In this document: in pieces, positions 1,128-56,333 of the stretch | How the letters are laid out: each line of letters begins with the position of its first letter | Numbering within the stretch: the stretch's first letter is position 1 | Made by a program: the position numbers and the translations under genes | Notes under the pieces: model-generated | The model's database searches: none | What the model saw: only the letters and a program-made list of their open reading frames with translations | Told to the model about the DNA's origin: nothing | Source of the DNA: Pontibacter sp. G13 | Lineage (GTDB): Bacteria > Bacteroidota > Bacteroidia > J057 | Length of the DNA stretch: 64,000 nt | Direction: 5' to 3' | Assembly: GCF_031851795.1 (NCBI RefSeq) | Contig: NZ_CP134696.1 | Location: 372,001 to 436,000 of the forward strand

Positions 1128-1813
1128 GATCTAATCATATTACCTAGCTGCACTTTTCGCAGTAGCGCTATGTATTCAGCCGCTAAGATGGAATGAAACC
1201 ACCAAGTAAAATAACTCGATCTACTAATGGTCGAATTGCGCCGATAAAAATACCCATCTAGGCAATGAAAGGGCTGAAGGCGATCTTCTTCCTACTGGAA
1301 AAATCAACCTTTTTTGACAAGCTCCGAGGCGTAAATTAAAGCTTCATCAGACCAAACAATTTGGAGAATCTATGGGTTCTATGAGATTCTTGAGGATGTG
1401 GATTTGGGCGTGCCCCCGTGTGCTGGGCAACCAGTTCCTTCCCCGGAATATGAGCCACGGGGTCTGGCCCTTCCGGACTCGCTAGCGCTCGGTCGGTGAA
1501 AATATGGCAGCCCAAACATCCGGGTAAAATCCAACAGTTTTACCCACGATCAACCCGTAAAATTCCACCGACTGAATCCTACAGACCCATCACGCCACAC
1601 CTGCCAGCCGCACATTTCTGGGGGTTCTCCCTTCCCAAATCCGTGCGCTCCTGGCATGGTCTAGATGGCCTTGTTTCAGCATGGAGGGTTTGGAGTTGCA
1701 GCCCCTTCGGATGAGTCCTCGATCTGTTGATCCCAATGGGATCACCATCAGATCGAAGACCGAGCCCGCCTTCGCAGGCACGCAAAAACCCACCAAGCCC
1801 CAACCATCACCTG
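1128..1813. other. Intergenic region carrying repeat copy A
   Basis: No convincing gene. The short frames here overlap each other on both strands and have no recognisable product. The region contains copy A of the dispersed repeat (1387-1632), including an 8-bp hairpin at 1522-1545. It also holds the promoter side of the minus-strand receptor gene and the region downstream of the sulfatase that ends at 1814. I see no strong terminator beyond that sulfatase. Confidence 0.7.
1387..1632 (+). repeat. Dispersed composite intergenic repeat, copy A
   Basis: Block 1 (about 1404-1497) begins TTTGGGCGTGCCCC and ends TTCCGGACTCGC..GCTCGGTCGG. Block 2 (1567-1614) reads ACCGACTGAATCCT, then CAG, CACGCC, and GCCAGCCGCAC. 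The same two blocks, in the same order and at similar spacing, occur at 13149-13400 and, on the minus strand, at 55500-55740. The spacer holds a hairpin at 1522-1545 (GGGTAAAA/TTTTACCC) that the other copies lack. Reading frames are not shared between copies, so the repeat looks non-coding. It may be a structured RNA or a non-autonomous mobile element. Confidence 0.8.
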
Positions 1814-13148: not shown

Positions 13149-13400
13149 CTTGAGGAGATTTTGGGCATGTCCCCGCGTGCTTGGACACAGGTTTCCTCCT
13201 TGCATGAAATTCGCGGGGTCGCCACCTTCCGGACTCCGCTACGCTCGGTCGGCGGGCATTGAGGACTGATTTTGAACCAAGCGTAAAACTCGAAAAGTGA
13301 AATCATTCCCTTGAAAAGAGGGGATACATTCCCTCCGACTACTCCTCCAGTCGGCTCACGCCCCACAAGCCAGCCGCACAGCACAAAATTGAGGAGGGAG
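13149..13400 (+). repeat. Dispersed composite intergenic repeat, copy B
   Basis: Block 1 (13159-13255) begins TTTTGGGCATGTCCCC and ends TTCCGGACTCCGCTACGCTCGGTCGG. Block 2 (13334-13380) reads CCGACTACTCCTCCAG, then CTCACGCC, CAC and GCCAGCCGCACA. The lead-in CTTGAGGA is shared with copy A. It lies downstream of a terminator, so it is not an extension of the GH2 transcript unless read-through occurs. Confidence 0.8.
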
Positions 13401-15623: not shown

Positions 15624-15657
15624 GAAAGCGCCTCTGGAATTTCCAGCAGGCGCTTTC
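15624..15657 (+). terminator. Terminator hairpin of PKD-protein gene
   Basis: GAAAGCGCC and GGCGCTTTC form a perfect 9-bp outer stem with an inner CTGGA/TCCAG stem. The sequence is almost identical to the hairpin at 15839. Confidence 0.75.
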
Positions 15658-15838: not shown

Positions 15839-15872
15839 AAAAGCGCCTCTGGGGTTTCCAGCAGGCGCTTTC
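15839..15872 (-). terminator. Terminator hairpin of SusC/SusD operon
   Basis: The same stem as at 15624 (AAAGCGCC/GGCGCTTT), with GGGG instead of GAAT in the inner part. Read on the minus strand it ends GGCGCTTTTT, so it serves the minus-strand susD that ends at 15986. Confidence 0.75.
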
Positions 15873-50042: not shown

Positions 50043-53000
50043 ATGAAACGTTTACCCGGGATCCTGTGTCTCCTGATGCTACTCGCTACAGGCCTTGCAC
50101 ATGCCCAGAATTCTCCTCCCCTACTCTTGCGCACCGGAACCGTCTATCCGGCCAGCAATGTCGAATCATTTATCCAAGGACCGAATCCCCGTGGCAAGGC
50201 CATTGCCGAAGGAAAATACGTCCGTATCCTTCAATTCACCCACATCCTCACAGATGCCGAACGCTTGGAGATTGAGCGTACCGGACTGGAGTTGATGGAT
50301 TACCTTCCGAAATACAGCTATCTCACGGCTTTCCCGGAACGGTATGATCGCACCCAGCTATTGAACTTGGGTGTTCGCAGCGTCATCAAACTCGACGCCA
50401 CTTCCAACATGCAGCCAGAATTGTTCAGTGGTAACTGGCCAGACTGGATTATCCGAGGCGACAAGCTGGAGGTCACCCTCACCTATTTCGAGCATGTCTC
50501 TGCGAACACCTTCCTGGGTCAATTGGCGGCAGCAGGATATGAGGTAACGCACCACAACGCATTTTCCCGATACGTCCATGCACTCATTCCGAATGGAGAT
50601 CTCGGCAAATTGGCAACTTGGGGAAGCATCCAATTCATCGAGCCCATTCCCGCTCCTGCTGTTCCCGATGATGTCCGCGGTCGAGGAATCCATCGTTCCA
50701 ATGCCATTGACAACGAATTTTCCACGGGTCGTCATTACGATGGATCTGGTGTGAGCGTCGTGGTCAATGATGACGGCTATGTAGGACCTCACATCGACTT
50801 TCAAGGCCGGACAGAACAGTCCAATGTGGCCAATGACTTCACCGGAACGCACGGCGACATGGTAGCCGGTATCTTGGGAGGAGCTGGGAACCTCGATCCG
50901 ACGATGAAAGGGATGGCTTCCGGGTCTTTCCTCTGGATTCGTCAGTATTCCTCTGCACTTCCCAATACCGTGAGCCTCCACACCAATGACACGGTCTTGG
51001 TGTTTTCCTCTTCGTACTCGAATGGTTGCAATTCGGGGTATACCAACCTCACCAATCAGGTCGATCAGGAAATCCACACCTACCCCACCCTGTTGCAGGT
51101 GTTTTCTGCCGGAAACTCCAACAACAATGATTGTGGATATGGCGCTGGTAACCAATGGGGAAACATCACAGGCGGTCACAAGCAGGGCAAAAACGTCATT
51201 GCCACTGCCAACCTCGCCTACGATGCAGTCCTCCAAAACTCCAGTAGCCGGGGTCCTGCGCACGATGGTCGAATCAAGCCGGATATCTCTGCGCATGGTG
51301 CGGGGCAGATGTCCACCGATCCCAACAATTCCTACGCAGCAGGGGGCGGTACCTCGGCGGCAGCTCCCGGTATCTCTGGGGTAGTTGCCCAATTGCATCA
51401 AGCACACCGCGAGCTTAATTCTGGCCAAACTGCTGAATCTCCCCTGATCAAGGCCGTCCTTCTAAACACTGCCCACGATCTCGGCAATGCAGGTCCTGAC
51501 TTCAAGTTTGGATGGGGACGTGTAAATGCCTTCCGCGCAGCTCAGACTTTGGAAAATCAGCACTATCTCAGCGCCACCATCTCCCAAGGCGGCCTCAACT
51601 CCCATACTATCCAAGTACCTGCCGGAACCGAGCAGGTGAAAATCATGGTCTACTGGCTTGATCCTGCAGGTAGCGTTTCCACCAGTCAGGCATTGGTCAA
51701 TGACCTCAACATGACCACCGTTTCACCGGGCGGAACGACGCACCTTCCTTGGCTCCTCGACCATACGCCCAATGCGACCACCTTGGACCTCCCAGCTACA
51801 CAGGGCGTGGATTCCATCAACAATGTAGAGCAGGTAGTCATCGACAATCCCGCAGCCGGCAACTACTTTGTGACCGTCAGTGGACATGCCGTCCCAAGTG
51901 GTCCCCAAAAATACTATGTAGTCTATGACTTCTGGCAAGATGAGGTGACTGTCACCTACCCGATGGGTGGCGAAGGTTGGGTCCCGGGAGAATCCGAGCG
52001 CATCCACTGGGACGCCAATGAAGCCTCCGGAACATTTGATATCGAATACACCGTCGACAATGGCAATACTTGGCAGAACATCGTCTCAGGGCTGCCCAGT
52101 GAAACCAGAGCTTATGACTGGACTGTCCCAACCGAATGGTCTGGGGAAGCCCGCATCCGAGTGAGCCGCGGATCTACCCAAGATGAGAGCGATGAGAACT
52201 TCACGATAGGCGTTCTGCCCACCAATCTCGAAATCGCTCAGGTTTGCTCCAGCCATACCCTGCTTACATGGGATTCGGTTCCGGGGGCGATTGCCTATGA
52301 TGTATTCATGCTGGGCAACCGCTACATGGATTCTGTCGGCACCAGCACAACGCCGTATTTTCAGGTAAATGGTACCAACTCCCAAGCTGAAAACTGGTTT
52401 GCCGTACGAGCGATCGGTCCCAATGGCATCCGTACTCGGAGGACCATCGCAGTCAATTCCACGCCGGGGGTAGTCAATTGTAACGCCAACCCTGACCTGT
52501 CCATCAAGCAATTGACCTCTCCGGGCAGCTTGGAGCAGGAATGCTTCCCGACCATTCCGGTCGAATTCAGTTTCCAGAACATCAGTGTAAGCGCCGTCGG
52601 AAGCATTACGCTCGGATATCAGGTCAATGGAGGCCCCATCCAGACGGGCTCCTTCACTGGTACCTTGTCTCCCGGAATCTCCCAATCGCATGTCTTCTCG
52701 ATCCCGATCAACAACCCAGGAATTGGCACACACACCTTCAAGGTATGGGTTGCCTCTCCGACAGACACAGATCCGACCAATGACACCTTGAGTACCAATT
52801 TCCAAGTATCCGGAAACACCATCAGTTCCTTCCCATACACGGAGAATTTTGATACCTACAACTCCTGCTCCACCAATTTCGATTGTGGAGCGACGCTCTG
52901 TCCGCTGGGCAATGGATGGCTTCAGCGCACCAATGGCGTAGTAGACGACATCGACTTCCGAGTCACCACAAATTCGACCCCTTCCTCCGACACGGGGCCA

Positions 53001-55421
53001 ACGGGAGACCACACCTCCGGAAATGGCAACTTCCTCTATACCGAAGCTTCCAACGGCTGTAATTTCACGGTGGCAGAGCTGGTATCCCCTTGTATCGACT
53101 TCTCCAATTCTATCGCGCCGGTGGCCTCTATCTGGTACCACATGTGGGGCGACGACATGGGGAGTTTGCATATCGACCTGTTTGACGGAAATGATTGGAT
53201 CTTGGACATCGTACCGCCCAAGACGGGCAATCAAGGCAATAACTGGCAAGAATGGCAGATTCCCTTGAATGCCTATGTAGGAGGCCCTGTGAATCTCCGG
53301 ATCAGAGCCATTACCGGAAGTGGGTATCAGTCCGATATTGCGATTGACGACTTCTCCATTACAGAGACCGTACAGGGCGCGATCGCAGCTTTCACGGTGG
53401 ACAAAACCCAAGGGTGTGTCGGGCAGGATTTCTCTTTCAATGACCAGAGCCAATACTCGCCGAATTCTTGGAACTGGACTATCACGCCCAATACTTTCAT
53501 TTTTGTGAATGGAACTTCCGCTACTGATCCTGATCCTCAGGTACAGTTCACAGCGGCCGGTACCTATGACGTTTCCTTGACAGTAAATAATGGAATTGGC
53601 CCCAACACCCTGACTCAGAACCAGCTGGTGACGGTCCAGACGGGGATTGCCCTCCCGTTGGTGGAAGATGCCGAAAGTGGCGTATTCCCTCCTGTAGGCT
53701 GGCAGGTCGAAAATCCAGATGCATCCACGGGCTGGACAACCGCTTCCTCTGTCGGCAGCGCTGGCTTATTTACCCAGGCATTCTGGATGAACAATATCTC
53801 ATACAGCAATGTCGGCCAGACGGACGCGCTCATCTCACCCGTACTGGATCTAACGACGAGCAGCTTCCCAATCTTGACTTTCGATGTATCTCACCCGCTT
53901 CATGGCCCGGGCGGGACAGAAGAATTGCGCGTATGGGTATCGACGGATTGTGGAGAGACCTTCTCGCAAATGGTATATCAGGAAACTAGTCCGGACTTGG
54001 CCACAGTGGGGGTGCAAGGTTCCATCTGGTTCCCGAGTACTGCGAATGACTGGAGAAACGACACCATCGATTTGAGCGCCTTTGCCGGTAGTCAGATCTT
54101 GGTCAAATTCGAGCAGTTGCATTTGGGCGGCCACAATGTCTTCCTTGACAATATCAATCTAGACAATCTCAATATCGTCCAACCAGTCGCTTCTTTCCAG
54201 ACCAGTAATCCTTCCTACTGCGAAGGAGATACCGTATGGTTCACAGGAACGGCTACGGGCAACTTCCTCAGCCAATACGACTGGGACTTCGGCGCCAATG
54301 CAGTTCCTGCTACGGCAACTGGCCCCGGTCCTCATGCAGTTTTGTATGCAGGAACCATTGCTTCCGCCAGCTTGACTGTGGCCAACCCAGCAGGTACGGA
54401 TTTCATCGCGCAAAGTGTGAGCTTCCAATCACTTCCAGTAGCTGGTTTCACGACTCAATCGCTGCCTGAAGAGGCCTATTTCTTCCAGAATAGCTCCTCT
54501 GACGCTACGGCCTTCCAGTGGGATTTCGGCAATGGCGACACCAGTCTCCAAGCCTCTCCCAACTACGAATACACGCAGAACGGCAGCTATGTCGTGACCT
54601 TGATCGCTTCGAATGATTGTGGAATCGACACCTTCACTCAGACGGTGGACGTTACTGGGATCGTCGTTCCACAAGCAGATTTCTTGCTGTCGGATACGGT
54701 AATCTGTGCGGGAGACTCCTTGCAAATCATCGACCAGACGCTGGGGATTCAAGTGGATTATGCATGGACCTTCAACAACGGCAATCCGGGCACTGGTCAA
54801 CAAGCAGGTCCGCTTTGGGTGACATTTACCCAGCCGGGAATGACTCAAATTCAGCTGATTGCCCAAAATGGCGCAGGTGCAGACACTGCCATCCAATGGG
54901 TGGAAGTGCTCGATCTTCCTTCCTCCGCCTTCAACTATCAGGCAGTGGGTAGTGGACTGGATCTGCAATTCACGACGAATGATCCGAGCCTGATCAGTTG
55001 GTCATGGGACTTCGGGGATGGCAATAGTTCCACACTTCAAAACCCCCTTCACTCCTACGCACAAAGCGGTCTCTACACAGTCAAGCTGACCACGCAAAAC
55101 AACTGTGGAATGGATAGCACTGCTACAGAGGTTTCAGTGACGGCACTTTCACTGGATGGGGCATTGGAGGCCTTTGACCTCATCATTGCTCCGAATCCTA
55201 CCCAAGGCAATAGCTGGCTCACCGTGTCCAGCGAGGAAATGGGCGCTCTGGAAGTCGAGATCTTCGATCCGGCTGGTAAGGCGCTCTGGAGTCACCAAGC
55301 CATGAAGGTTTCCACGGAATACCAACTACAACTGGATGCCTCCGCTTGGGCACAGGGAATCTATCTGGTCCGCGTCCAATTGGCTGATCAGGTGGTTTTG
55401 CGGAAATGGATGAAGCGATAA
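50043..55421 (+). CDS. Large multidomain subtilisin-like (S8) protease with PKD repeats and T9SS domain
   Basis: 1792 residues. A signal peptide (MKRLPGILCLLMLLATGLAHAQ) and a prodomain-like region (about 22-215) precede a subtilase domain. The predicted triad is Asp243 or Asp244 (VVNDDGYVG), His270 (GTHGDMVAG) and Ser438 (GGGTSAAAPG). After it come a P-domain-like sandwich (about 510-640), a YPMGGEGW..GE Ig-like module, an FN3-like module and a CARDB-like module. A MAM-like jelly-roll, two further PKD domains around a choice-of-anchor module, three more PKD domains and a T9SS C-terminal domain (IIAPNPTQGNSWLTV) follow. It would be secreted through the type IX system and act on extracellular protein or host/prey surfaces. 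Monocistronic, between two terminators. Module edges are approximate. Confidence 0.9.
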   Translation: MKRLPGILCLLMLLATGLAHAQNSPPLLLRTGTVYPASNVESFIQGPNPRGKAIAEGKYVRILQFTHILTDAERLEIERTGLELMDYLPKYSYLTAFPERYDRTQLLNLGVRSVIKLDATSNMQPELFSGNWPDWIIRGDKLEVTLTYFEHVSANTFLGQLAAAGYEVTHHNAFSRYVHALIPNGDLGKLATWGSIQFIEPIPAPAVPDDVRGRGIHRSNAIDNEFSTGRHYDGSGVSVVVNDDGYVGPHIDFQGRTEQSNVANDFTGTHGDMVAGILGGAGNLDPTMKGMASGSFLWIRQYSSALPNTVSLHTNDTVLVFSSSYSNGCNSGYTNLTNQVDQEIHTYPTLLQVFSAGNSNNNDCGYGAGNQWGNITGGHKQGKNVIATANLAYDAVLQNSSSRGPAHDGRIKPDISAHGAGQMSTDPNNSYAAGGGTSAAAPGISGVVAQLHQAHRELNSGQTAESPLIKAVLLNTAHDLGNAGPDFKFGWGRVNAFRAAQTLENQHYLSATISQGGLNSHTIQVPAGTEQVKIMVYWLDPAGSVSTSQALVNDLNMTTVSPGGTTHLPWLLDHTPNATTLDLPATQGVDSINNVEQVVIDNPAAGNYFVTVSGHAVPSGPQKYYVVYDFWQDEVTVTYPMGGEGWVPGESERIHWDANEASGTFDIEYTVDNGNTWQNIVSGLPSETRAYDWTVPTEWSGEARIRVSRGSTQDESDENFTIGVLPTNLEIAQVCSSHTLLTWDSVPGAIAYDVFMLGNRYMDSVGTSTTPYFQVNGTNSQAENWFAVRAIGPNGIRTRRTIAVNSTPGVVNCNANPDLSIKQLTSPGSLEQECFPTIPVEFSFQNISVSAVGSITLGYQVNGGPIQTGSFTGTLSPGISQSHVFSIPINNPGIGTHTFKVWVASPTDTDPTNDTLSTNFQVSGNTISSFPYTENFDTYNSCSTNFDCGATLCPLGNGWLQRTNGVVDDIDFRVTTNSTPSSDTGPTGDHTSGNGNFLYTEASNGCNFTVAELVSPCIDFSNSIAPVASIWYHMWGDDMGSLHIDLFDGNDWILDIVPPKTGNQGNNWQEWQIPLNAYVGGPVNLRIRAITGSGYQSDIAIDDFSITETVQGAIAAFTVDKTQGCVGQDFSFNDQSQYSPNSWNWTITPNTFIFVNGTSATDPDPQVQFTAAGTYDVSLTVNNGIGPNTLTQNQLVTVQTGIALPLVEDAESGVFPPVGWQVENPDASTGWTTASSVGSAGLFTQAFWMNNISYSNVGQTDALISPVLDLTTSSFPILTFDVSHPLHGPGGTEELRVWVSTDCGETFSQMVYQETSPDLATVGVQGSIWFPSTANDWRNDTIDLSAFAGSQILVKFEQLHLGGHNVFLDNINLDNLNIVQPVASFQTSNPSYCEGDTVWFTGTATGNFLSQYDWDFGANAVPATATGPGPHAVLYAGTIASASLTVANPAGTDFIAQSVSFQSLPVAGFTTQSLPEEAYFFQNSSSDATAFQWDFGNGDTSLQASPNYEYTQNGSYVVTLIASNDCGIDTFTQTVDVTGIVVPQADFLLSDTVICAGDSLQIIDQTLGIQVDYAWTFNNGNPGTGQQAGPLWVTFTQPGMTQIQLIAQNGAGADTAIQWVEVLDLPSSAFNYQAVGSGLDLQFTTNDPSLISWSWDFGDGNSSTLQNPLHSYAQSGLYTVKLTTQNNCGMDSTATEVSVTALSLDGALEAFDLIIAPNPTQGNSWLTVSSEEMGALEVEIFDPAGKALWSHQAMKVSTEYQLQLDASAWAQGIYLVRVQLADQVVLRKWMKR

Positions 55422-55442
55422 TTCGTTCCATCAACACTCATC

Positions 55443-55472
55443 AAATGGCCGCCAGTTTTGGTGGCCATTTTT
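55443..55472 (+). terminator. Terminator after protease gene
   Basis: AAATGGCC (55443-55450) pairs with GGCCATTT (55463-55470), with an inner CCA/TGG, followed by a T-run. Confidence 0.85.
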
Positions 55473-55499
55473 CTTTGGGGTCATACCGATGCTCTGAAA

Positions 55500-55740
55500 A
55501 GGAGGGATAAAGCGTGCGGATGGCCTGCGTGGCGTGAAGAGCCTGGAGGATTCAGTCGGTAGAGTCAGCGTTTAGGGCCAAGGGAAATGGTGCGGATTGG
55601 GAGCATCAAACCTGCCCTATTCAGGCATGTTTCCACCGACCGAGCTTCGCGAGTCCGGAAGGGTCTGACCCGGTGCCATCCGGTCCATGAGACAGCCCTC
55701 TTTCCAAGCTCACCGGGGCACGCCCAACTCCTTGCCAAAA
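55500..55740 (-). repeat. Dispersed composite intergenic repeat, copy C
   Basis: Read on the minus strand, block 1 (55729 to 55631) begins GTTGGGCGTGCCCCGGTG and ends CCCTTCCGGACTCGCGAAG, CTCGGTCGGTGG. Block 2 (55560 to 55514) reads ACCGACTGAATCCTCCAG, then TCACGCCACGC, GGCCATCCGCAC. Order and spacing match copies A and B. It is enclosed by hairpins at 55443-55472 and 55772-55800. Confidence 0.8.
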
Positions 55741-55771
55741 ACATCTTCCCCTATCCCGTTTGAAAACAAAC

Positions 55772-55800
55772 AAGGGATTGCCGCAGGAGAGCAATCCCTT
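55772..55800 (-). terminator. Hairpin downstream of DUF2892 gene
   Basis: AAGGGATTGC (55772-55781) and GCAATCCCTT (55791-55800) form a perfect 10-bp stem. On the minus strand it is followed by GTTTGTTTTC, a weak T-run, 140 bp beyond the DUF2892 stop. Confidence 0.6.
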
Positions 55801-55940
55801 TCTTCATCAGGTAATTGAGATACCGATTCAATCTATCTACCCTAGTGTCAGTAGCGCTCGATTCGGGGACCAAAGCAAGACCCGACCTTTCGAGATACTT
55901 AACCTGAAATTGAACGAGCTAGTTGTATGTGTAGCGTCCC

Positions 55941-56156
55941 CTAGTGTGTTCCGTGATGGTGCCCTCCGCGAAACAGGTTGAACAGGTCATAGGCAGGACA
56001 ATATCCCCCCAGGCCAGTGAGGGTGAAAATAGCCGCTACGATAAATCCAACAGTGGCTAGCCATCCGACCAGTACGTTGGCGAATACGAGGATGAACAAT
56101 ACCATCGCTACGATCAGTCTCATCCTCCGGTCTGCAAATCCCATATTAACTTTCAT
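55941..56156 (-). CDS. DUF2892 (YgaP-like) inner-membrane protein
   Basis: 71 residues. It starts MKVNMGFADRRMRL, the conserved cytoplasmic N-terminus of DUF2892, and has two membrane segments (IVAMVLFILVFANVLVGWLA and TVGFIVAAIFTLTGLGG). It then continues YCPAYDLFNL, matching the family C-P-x-Y motif. The tail is His-rich (GGHHHGTH). Members are often found near sulfur-transfer or stress genes; the biochemical role is unknown. A 14-bp palindrome-like site lies 51 bp upstream. Confidence 0.85.
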   Translation of the reverse strand: MKVNMGFADRRMRLIVAMVLFILVFANVLVGWLATVGFIVAAIFTLTGLGGYCPAYDLFNLFRGGHHHGTH

Positions 56157-56206
56157 AGTCCTTATTGTTAGTGGGTGCTTGCCGAATGCCTTTGTGTCTC
56201 ATGATG

Positions 56207-56220
56207 GTATTTGTAAATAC
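56207..56220. promoter_or_regulatory. Near-palindromic site upstream of DUF2892 gene
   Basis: GTATTTGTAAATAC has perfect 6-bp arms around a two-base centre. It lies 51 bp before the DUF2892 ATG, in the promoter zone. It could be an operator; the regulator is unknown. Confidence 0.35.
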
Positions 56221-56333
56221 GGAAATAGGCTGCCCGGAGCCGGCGATTTGACGCAGGTCCGGGCAGGATTATTCATGGTCAAGAGACTGCGAAAAGTCTA
56301 CTTTTCACGCTCGAAGACTATTCGACACACTCG

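Follow-up and report, generated by a model that had tools for sequence, protein, structure and literature searches.

A dispersed structured element between two terminators in a Bacteroidota genome: indications of a fold at the level of DNA

What is a 214-nt repeat doing in a gap where two terminators seem to separate it from both neighboring genes? The question is raised by copy C, one of three copies of an element in the window (the 64,000-nt stretch of DNA analysed here, part of a 7.5 Mb contig). The original prediction was that an element so isolated must have its own promoter, as a small RNA would, or else be a silent insertion. The features at the locus are as follows.

50043..55421, plus strand: subtilisin-like secreted protease gene, the left neighbor (ORF; Pfam: Peptidase_S8, PKD, MAM, Por secretion tail)
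55443..55470, plus strand: terminator-like hairpin downstream of the protease gene; stem of 12 pairs, T-rich from 55471 (tail TTCTTTGGGG; pattern scan and folding)
55514..55727, minus strand: copy C, 214 nt, TTGGGCGTG...CCATCCGCAC, 5' end at 55727
55772..55800, minus strand: terminator-like hairpin downstream of the YgaP-like gene; stem of 11 pairs, with the T-rich tail GTTTGTTTTC towards copy C (pattern scan and folding)
55941..56156, minus strand: YgaP-like_TM (DUF2892) gene, the right neighbor, co-directional with the element (ORF; PF11127, E 7.8e-14)

Both hairpins that enclose copy C were confirmed by a pattern scan of 55300-56300, which found 3 terminator-like sites (shuffle mean 1.0, sd 0.9), the third being a weak 5-pair hairpin at 55894-55881 on the minus strand. 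Folded alone as RNA, the protease-side hairpin (55438-55478, plus strand) has a z-score of -4.73 and the YgaP-side hairpin (55765-55810, minus strand) one of -3.60, with 0 of 200 shuffles equally stable in each case. The hairpins are present where they were predicted and far above shuffles in stability, but the second has 11 pairs in the scan rather than the 10-bp stem first described. Copy C does point opposite to the protease gene, running on the minus strand from 55727 to 55514, along the direction of the YgaP-like gene. The protease gene (plus) and the YgaP-like gene (minus) are convergent, and each hairpin is positioned and oriented to end transcription of its own gene; copy C is indeed cut off from both, in a setting that is common in the family. 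Because both terminators belong to the convergent neighbors, the bracketing of copy C is, by itself, ordinary.

A BLAST query of 381 bases spanning copy C returned 59 matches. An alignment of 37 copies from this genome, picked by similarity to copy C (A1), was used to build the covariance model R1; R2 is an independent covariance model from other organisms, with this genome excluded. With default filters and E<=10, R1 identified three copies in the window and one 7.3-bit antisense echo of copy C, and no degraded copies.

1404..1613, plus strand: copy A (R1 177.7 bits; R2 E 7.4e-6)
13161..13379, plus strand: copy B (R1 151.4 bits; R2 weak, E 0.031)
55514..55727, minus strand: copy C (R1 172.9 bits, copy C being among R1's 37 sequences; R2 24.6 bits, E 3.5e-5)

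Genome-wide, 150 of 150 scored candidates match R1, drawn from 1716 first-look candidates, so the total is at least 150; at least 156 distinct copies of 160-247 nt were resolved. At least 13 copies match R2. Mean identity among the 37 copies of A1 is 60%. The ends are sharp (5' (A)TTTGGGCG, 3' CCGCAC), and the unpaired terminal CCGCAC is invariant in 37 of 37 aligned copies. The four closest copy pairs, 83-96% identical, sit 4 to 11 kb apart; beyond these local pairs, the best full-length matches are at most 76% identical (top 15 by matched bases). In three distant short-form copies, about 34 nt of inner hairpin are 94-100% identical, which hints at later spread or exchange. The short form, about 160-187 nt with a tight inner hairpin, frequently stands tail to tail with a long form (L046, L013, L018, L025 and others). 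The best R2 match in this genome, L340 (G000:C1:1158000-1161200, E 1e-10), is not one of the 150 listed R1 matches, an indication of one more subtype. Also present in the window are two near-identical hairpins at 15625-15657 and 15840-15872 (AAAGCGCCTC...GGCGCTTTC, 94%), 215 nt apart.

Terminators are frequent next to other copies. For 107 copies, the nearest other copy is more than 400 nt away. A same-strand terminator-like hairpin lies up to 110 nt upstream of 39 of these, a convergent one lies downstream of 30, and 11 show both; the opposite hairpin orientations occur in 10 (upstream) and 6 (downstream), and the background is 14 positives in 856 random-window tests (1.6%). The 11 doubly flanked copies equal the product of the two rates, and thus bracketing is no separate trait. 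Across all 156 copies, terminator-like hairpins number 53 upstream sense, 16 upstream antisense, 6 downstream sense and 31 downstream antisense. A crude ORF-based classification places 65 of 151 copies in convergent gaps, compared to 22 of 124 in the background (5 edge copies left out), but it ignores genes shorter than 240 nt and so misclassifies copy C; the terminator counts are preferred. With its two terminators, copy C is typical of the family, and this setting arises because the copy lies between convergent genes. Twenty-one neighbor pairs are less than 100 nt apart, 20 of them tail to tail and one head to head. Local clusters occur in other genomes, with four elements in about 10 kb at L334 (G197:C25:195000-209000) and three in about 14 kb at L338 (G181:C3:7000-22700).

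TAnnTTTG is the -7 promoter motif of Bacteroidota. In a scan limited to this promoter type, covering 100 nt upstream plus 20 nt, it was found in 1 of 156 copies (5.9 in shuffles), and a sigma-70 scan around copy C (55300-56300) returned 0 sites (1.0 in shuffles). Strong conservation of the 5' flank is confined to positions -2 (1.07 bits) and -1 (1.36 bits), with a weak G/A signal from -7 to -3 (0.26-0.49 bits) and little else beyond the ends. Target-site duplications were absent, as words common to both flanks of the 156 copies are no longer than in reshuffled flanks.

The predicted fold consists of an outer helix, a side hairpin (P1) and a long mismatched arm with a variable end loop, a layout kept here and in Bacteroidota relatives. 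Projection of the consensus structure on copy C gives the following elements.

55719..55724, minus strand: outer helix H1, 5' side GGCGTG, paired with 55531..55536 (3' side, CACGCC)
55711..55717, minus strand: helix P1, 5' side CCCGGTG, paired with 55669..55675 (3' side) around a variable loop at 55676-55710
55660..55666, minus strand: helix H3, 5' side, AGA/TCT and CT/AG flanking an imperfect position (usually C-C in the family), paired with 55538..55544 (3' side)
55633..55641, minus strand: helix H6, 5' side GGTCGGTGG, paired with 55554..55562 (3' side), with two G-T in copy C
55563..55632, minus strand: hypervariable loop V (consensus projection and V-loop parsing)

RNAalifold on a plain MAFFT alignment of the 37 A1 copies predicts 32 pairs, 22 of which show two-sided changes. 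In 130 model-aligned matches, 97.9% of 3969 pair cells are paired and 514 two-sided changes occur, compared to 83.0% and 102.6 in shuffles and 30-47% paired with slid partners; these samples lean to intact structures, as A1 was picked by similarity to copy C and both the model searches and the model-fitted alignments favor them. Of the 32 consensus pairs, copy C forms 30 by Watson-Crick pairing and the other two by G-T. The same layout is found in 24 weakly matching copies from five relatives (A3, 95.4% paired) and is predicted in 41 elements from named organisms (A4; 20 pairs, 10 with two-sided changes). Some imperfections are kept: one H3 position is C-C or A-C in 27 of 37 copies, and 101 of 118 copies retain a G-T at the base of helix 6. 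When one strand of copy C is folded by itself, its stability is unremarkable (z +0.25 for DNA, -0.84 for RNA), and the fold of lowest predicted energy differs from the consensus. The V loop could be parsed in 122 of 156 copies and is 70-78 nt long in 101 of those, with next to no sequence signal inside. Close copy pairs diverge in the V loop mainly by substitutions, and a low indel rate may explain the uniform lengths. Comparison of the V regions with the fetched loci gave 198 matches, self matches included.

An RNA is expected to pass through wobble pairs as its helices change. In helices 1-5 of the 130 matches, there are 3 G-U cells versus 456 two-sided changes, so that five of the six helices are nearly without G-T/G-U, the exception being helix 6. 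In an RNase P control from 19 related genomes, the covarying pairs include 118 G-U and 351 alternative Watson-Crick cells (about 1 per 3). The core of A1 gives 1 versus 107, and the wobble pairs of helix 6 raise this to 11 versus 112 over all covarying pairs. Helices 1-5 of A3 give 10 versus 62. For the 41 A4 elements, from other organisms, the core gives 3 versus 48 and all covarying pairs 37 versus 99; the latter ratio is no different from that of RNase P and is put down to a poorly aligned inner helix. The near-absence of wobble pairs in helices 1-5 favors a fold at the level of DNA, for which the case is good but indirect. The small RNA with its own promoter, one half of the original alternative, is not supported, given that a promoter motif is not common to the copies and that wobble is avoided in five of six helices. 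Avoidance of wobble pairs may be a simple criterion to separate DNA-level from RNA-level folds in comparative data.

The local duplicates indicate what is retained when copies diverge. In three of the four pairs, differences affect 8 of 192 stem sites and 79 of 444 loop sites, although in one pair (92% identical in BLAST) the loop differences look inflated by the model alignment. The stem changes comprise 6 base pairs changed on one side and 1 compensated. As stems are kept while loops are randomized, "silent insertion" applies only in part. Thus, the choice between RNA and silence was too narrow, and a maintained DNA structure fits better.

Turnover was studied at one locus of a flavobacterial genus in 20 genomes, the query included. 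An R2 match lies near the site in 11, among which two matches are 100-200 nt further out and L344 appears truncated; 7 genomes are without a match, L360 is partial and L347 is, by eye, a remnant. This patchy presence means that copies come, go or change over longer times. At this locus in several species (L341-L352), elements lie near the same site with different inner arms and P1 loops, as if arms had been exchanged between copies.

R1 matches 5 of 59 relatives at E<=0.001 (6 of 60 counting this genome). In a sample of 147 other genomes from the phylum, R2 matches at least 22 at E<=1e-5; these counts are lower bounds, since the filters were strict and no more than 25 candidates per genome were scored. 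The two models come from different organisms and each recovers the other's elements. A motif-pattern scan of an 84,980-species collection found at least 117 stretches, where tens of chance matches are expected by rough estimate. Of the 80 listed, 74 are Bacteroidota by title, and the other 6 are one uncultured bacterium (L233) and five non-Bacteroidota. R1 was run on 39 of the 80 listed loci and gave 16 matches at E<=1, including 9 at E<=0.001. R1 also recognizes two loci from Spirochaete MAGs (L289, E 1e-4; L217, E 0.11). The loci in Pseudomonas (L267), Variovorax (L269) and Duganella (L279) were rejected as chance-like pattern matches, with no R1 match up to E=1, as were L232 and L275 in Hymenobacter, which fall inside genes. 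The motif pattern was also seen in 2 viral contigs. Among the papers listed in literature searches, none was recognized as dealing with the whole element.

None of 4227 Rfam families matches the 64 kb window at gathering score. Flavo-1 (RF01705) was considered as the identity of the window copies and rejected, as it has no window match at gathering score and none at E<=10 in 55300-55950; in this genome, 0 of 150 scored candidates match its model. Rfam searches at E<=1 on 18 of 24 relatives' loci detected no Flavo-1 and one CRISPR-repeat match (E 0.59). Eighteen loci from flavobacteria and their kin contain 11 Flavo-1 matches, 8 overlapping a pattern-found element and 3 elsewhere. The overlaps (pattern and Rfam), all with Flavo-1 on the strand opposite to the element, are at L224, L227, L236, L248, L250, L260, L264 and L286. 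R1 links to Flavo-1 loci are weak, at L248 (E 0.0023) and L250 (E 0.037), both of which are also Flavo-1 matches.

We consider it close to an even chance that copy C belongs to a dispersed structured element which functions at the DNA level and is maintained in place. In helices 1-5, pairs have been swapped for other Watson-Crick pairs, almost without wobble intermediates. The fold might be read by a putative protein, either in single-stranded DNA or in an extruded cruciform. Most copies would be old and held by selection on structure, for example as chromosome sites, in a family that may once have spread by copying. The terminators would merely mark places where elements are tolerated or were inserted. 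If this is correct, the genome has well over 100 sites with structure kept by selection and with relatives across the phylum, and two questions become testable: which protein reads the sites, and what role DNA structure has beyond terminators. A more extensive proposal, for which our expectation is rather low, is a phylum-wide class of chromosomal DNA-structure sites, with more than 100 copies here and a selected branched DNA fold, located in quiet gaps beyond terminators and read by a dedicated putative protein. Flavo-1, an annotated Bacteroidota "RNA" family, would then be partly a fragment of a DNA element, annotated on the other strand.

A different explanation, improbable in our judgment but a serious contender, is a purely parasitic, non-autonomous mobile element of the MITE or REP type, in which a transposase provided in trans acts on the DNA fold, stems are kept only for working templates and the copies are useless to the host. 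High copy number and defined ends are as expected for such an element, the tail-to-tail arrangement of 20 of 21 close neighbor pairs is reminiscent of paired REPs, and at the flavobacterial locus a match was found in 11 of 20 genomes, with differing arms, and the other genomes have no element or a reduced one. The inner hairpins common to the three distant short-form copies weaken the reading of copies maintained in place and strengthen that of a mobile element. Against it stand closest full-length matches of at most 76% identity (top 15) apart from the four local pairs, the absence of decayed copies from the window up to E=10 and of a target duplication, and stems that still change more slowly than loops after local duplication. 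In addition, none of five Y1 transposase loci carries the element, and 3 of 5 element-bearing relatives are without a Y1 match.

Template switching at hairpins perfects imperfect inverted repeats and would give Watson-Crick-only compensatory changes without wobble intermediates. The pairing could accordingly be a functionless mutational by-product, and the nearly wobble-free compensatory changes in helices 1-5 agree with this expectation, but we regard it as very unlikely: imperfections persist at H3 (C-C or A-C, 27 of 37) and at the base of helix 6 (G-T, 101 of 118), and the unpaired CCGCAC end is invariant in 37 of 37 copies. A family of transcribed structured RNAs, with own promoters or dependent on read-through of leaky terminators, is quite unlikely too, although less so. 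The strength of the covariation is typical of structured RNA, wobble is tolerated in helix 6, and Rfam lists Flavo-1 as an sRNA gene; a F. psychrophilum transcriptome paper reports several 5' transcribed regions that coincide with Flavo-1 matches. On the other side, helices 1-5 are nearly without wobble when set against RNase P, a promoter motif is not common to the copies, the copies are positioned beyond terminators, and the Flavo-1 overlaps are on the opposite strand, with no strand preference in the transcriptome paper. We therefore retain the in-place DNA structure as the preferred reading of copy C.

Among the closest known systems is Flavo-1 (RF01705), a candidate structured RNA of Bacteroidetes that Rfam classes as an sRNA gene. 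As judged by reading its printed consensus, it has the inner arm in common with the element, and it is similarly high in copy number, with at least 22-126 matches in each of five of six genomes (up to 150 candidates scored). In contrast to the element, it has only 76 positions and, by reading, is without the outer helix, P1 and the TTGGGCGTG/CTCACGC ends; it also lies on the opposite strand in all 8 overlaps. In the F. psychrophilum transcriptome paper, Flavo-1 matches occur in either orientation, without strand preference, and many are untranscribed; several 5' transcribed regions coincide with matches.

REP/BIME repeats, and REPINs with their RAYT transposases, are likewise dispersed folding repeats, often at gene ends and with inverted neighbors. 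REPs are 20-40 bp according to PMC3733652, which also reports CGTC-tagged repeats in Bacteroidetes, whereas the element is 160-247 nt and branched; RAYT subclass 2.6 of Bacteroidetes is described with "atypical secondary structures" in PMC6006769. The element adjoins neither of this genome's two Y1 (TnpA-REP, PF01797) genes. In this genome (G000) and five relatives, no Y1 locus carries it up to E=1 (0 of 5: 2 loci in G000, 2 in G009 and 1, below the family cut-off, in G037), which speaks against RAYT/IS200-type mobilization. One Y1 gene (L047, G000:C1:1434026-1437367, a 153-aa frame) has on either side long arrays of another repeat, which contains GTCGGGCC..ACAGCCC and GGGTTTCCAACCCTATG. The second (L048, G000:C1:5487064-5490294) is flanked by several REP-like hairpins (GCGGACTTCCGGACCGTG...GCGTAGTCCGCG) that have the nine-base word CTTCCGGAC in common with the element's arm, perhaps by chance.

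Integron attC sites conserve fold over sequence, have stem mismatches and a variable terminal loop, and act as folded single-stranded DNA. By analogy, the element may be comparable in its conserved fold, stem mismatches and variable loop, and differs in its three-branched layout. Small repeats of the ERIC, BOX, RUP and Correia types are, like the element, non-coding and interspersed in intergenic DNA. Their copies are similar within one lineage, whereas those of the element are far more diverged in sequence and are found across the phylum.
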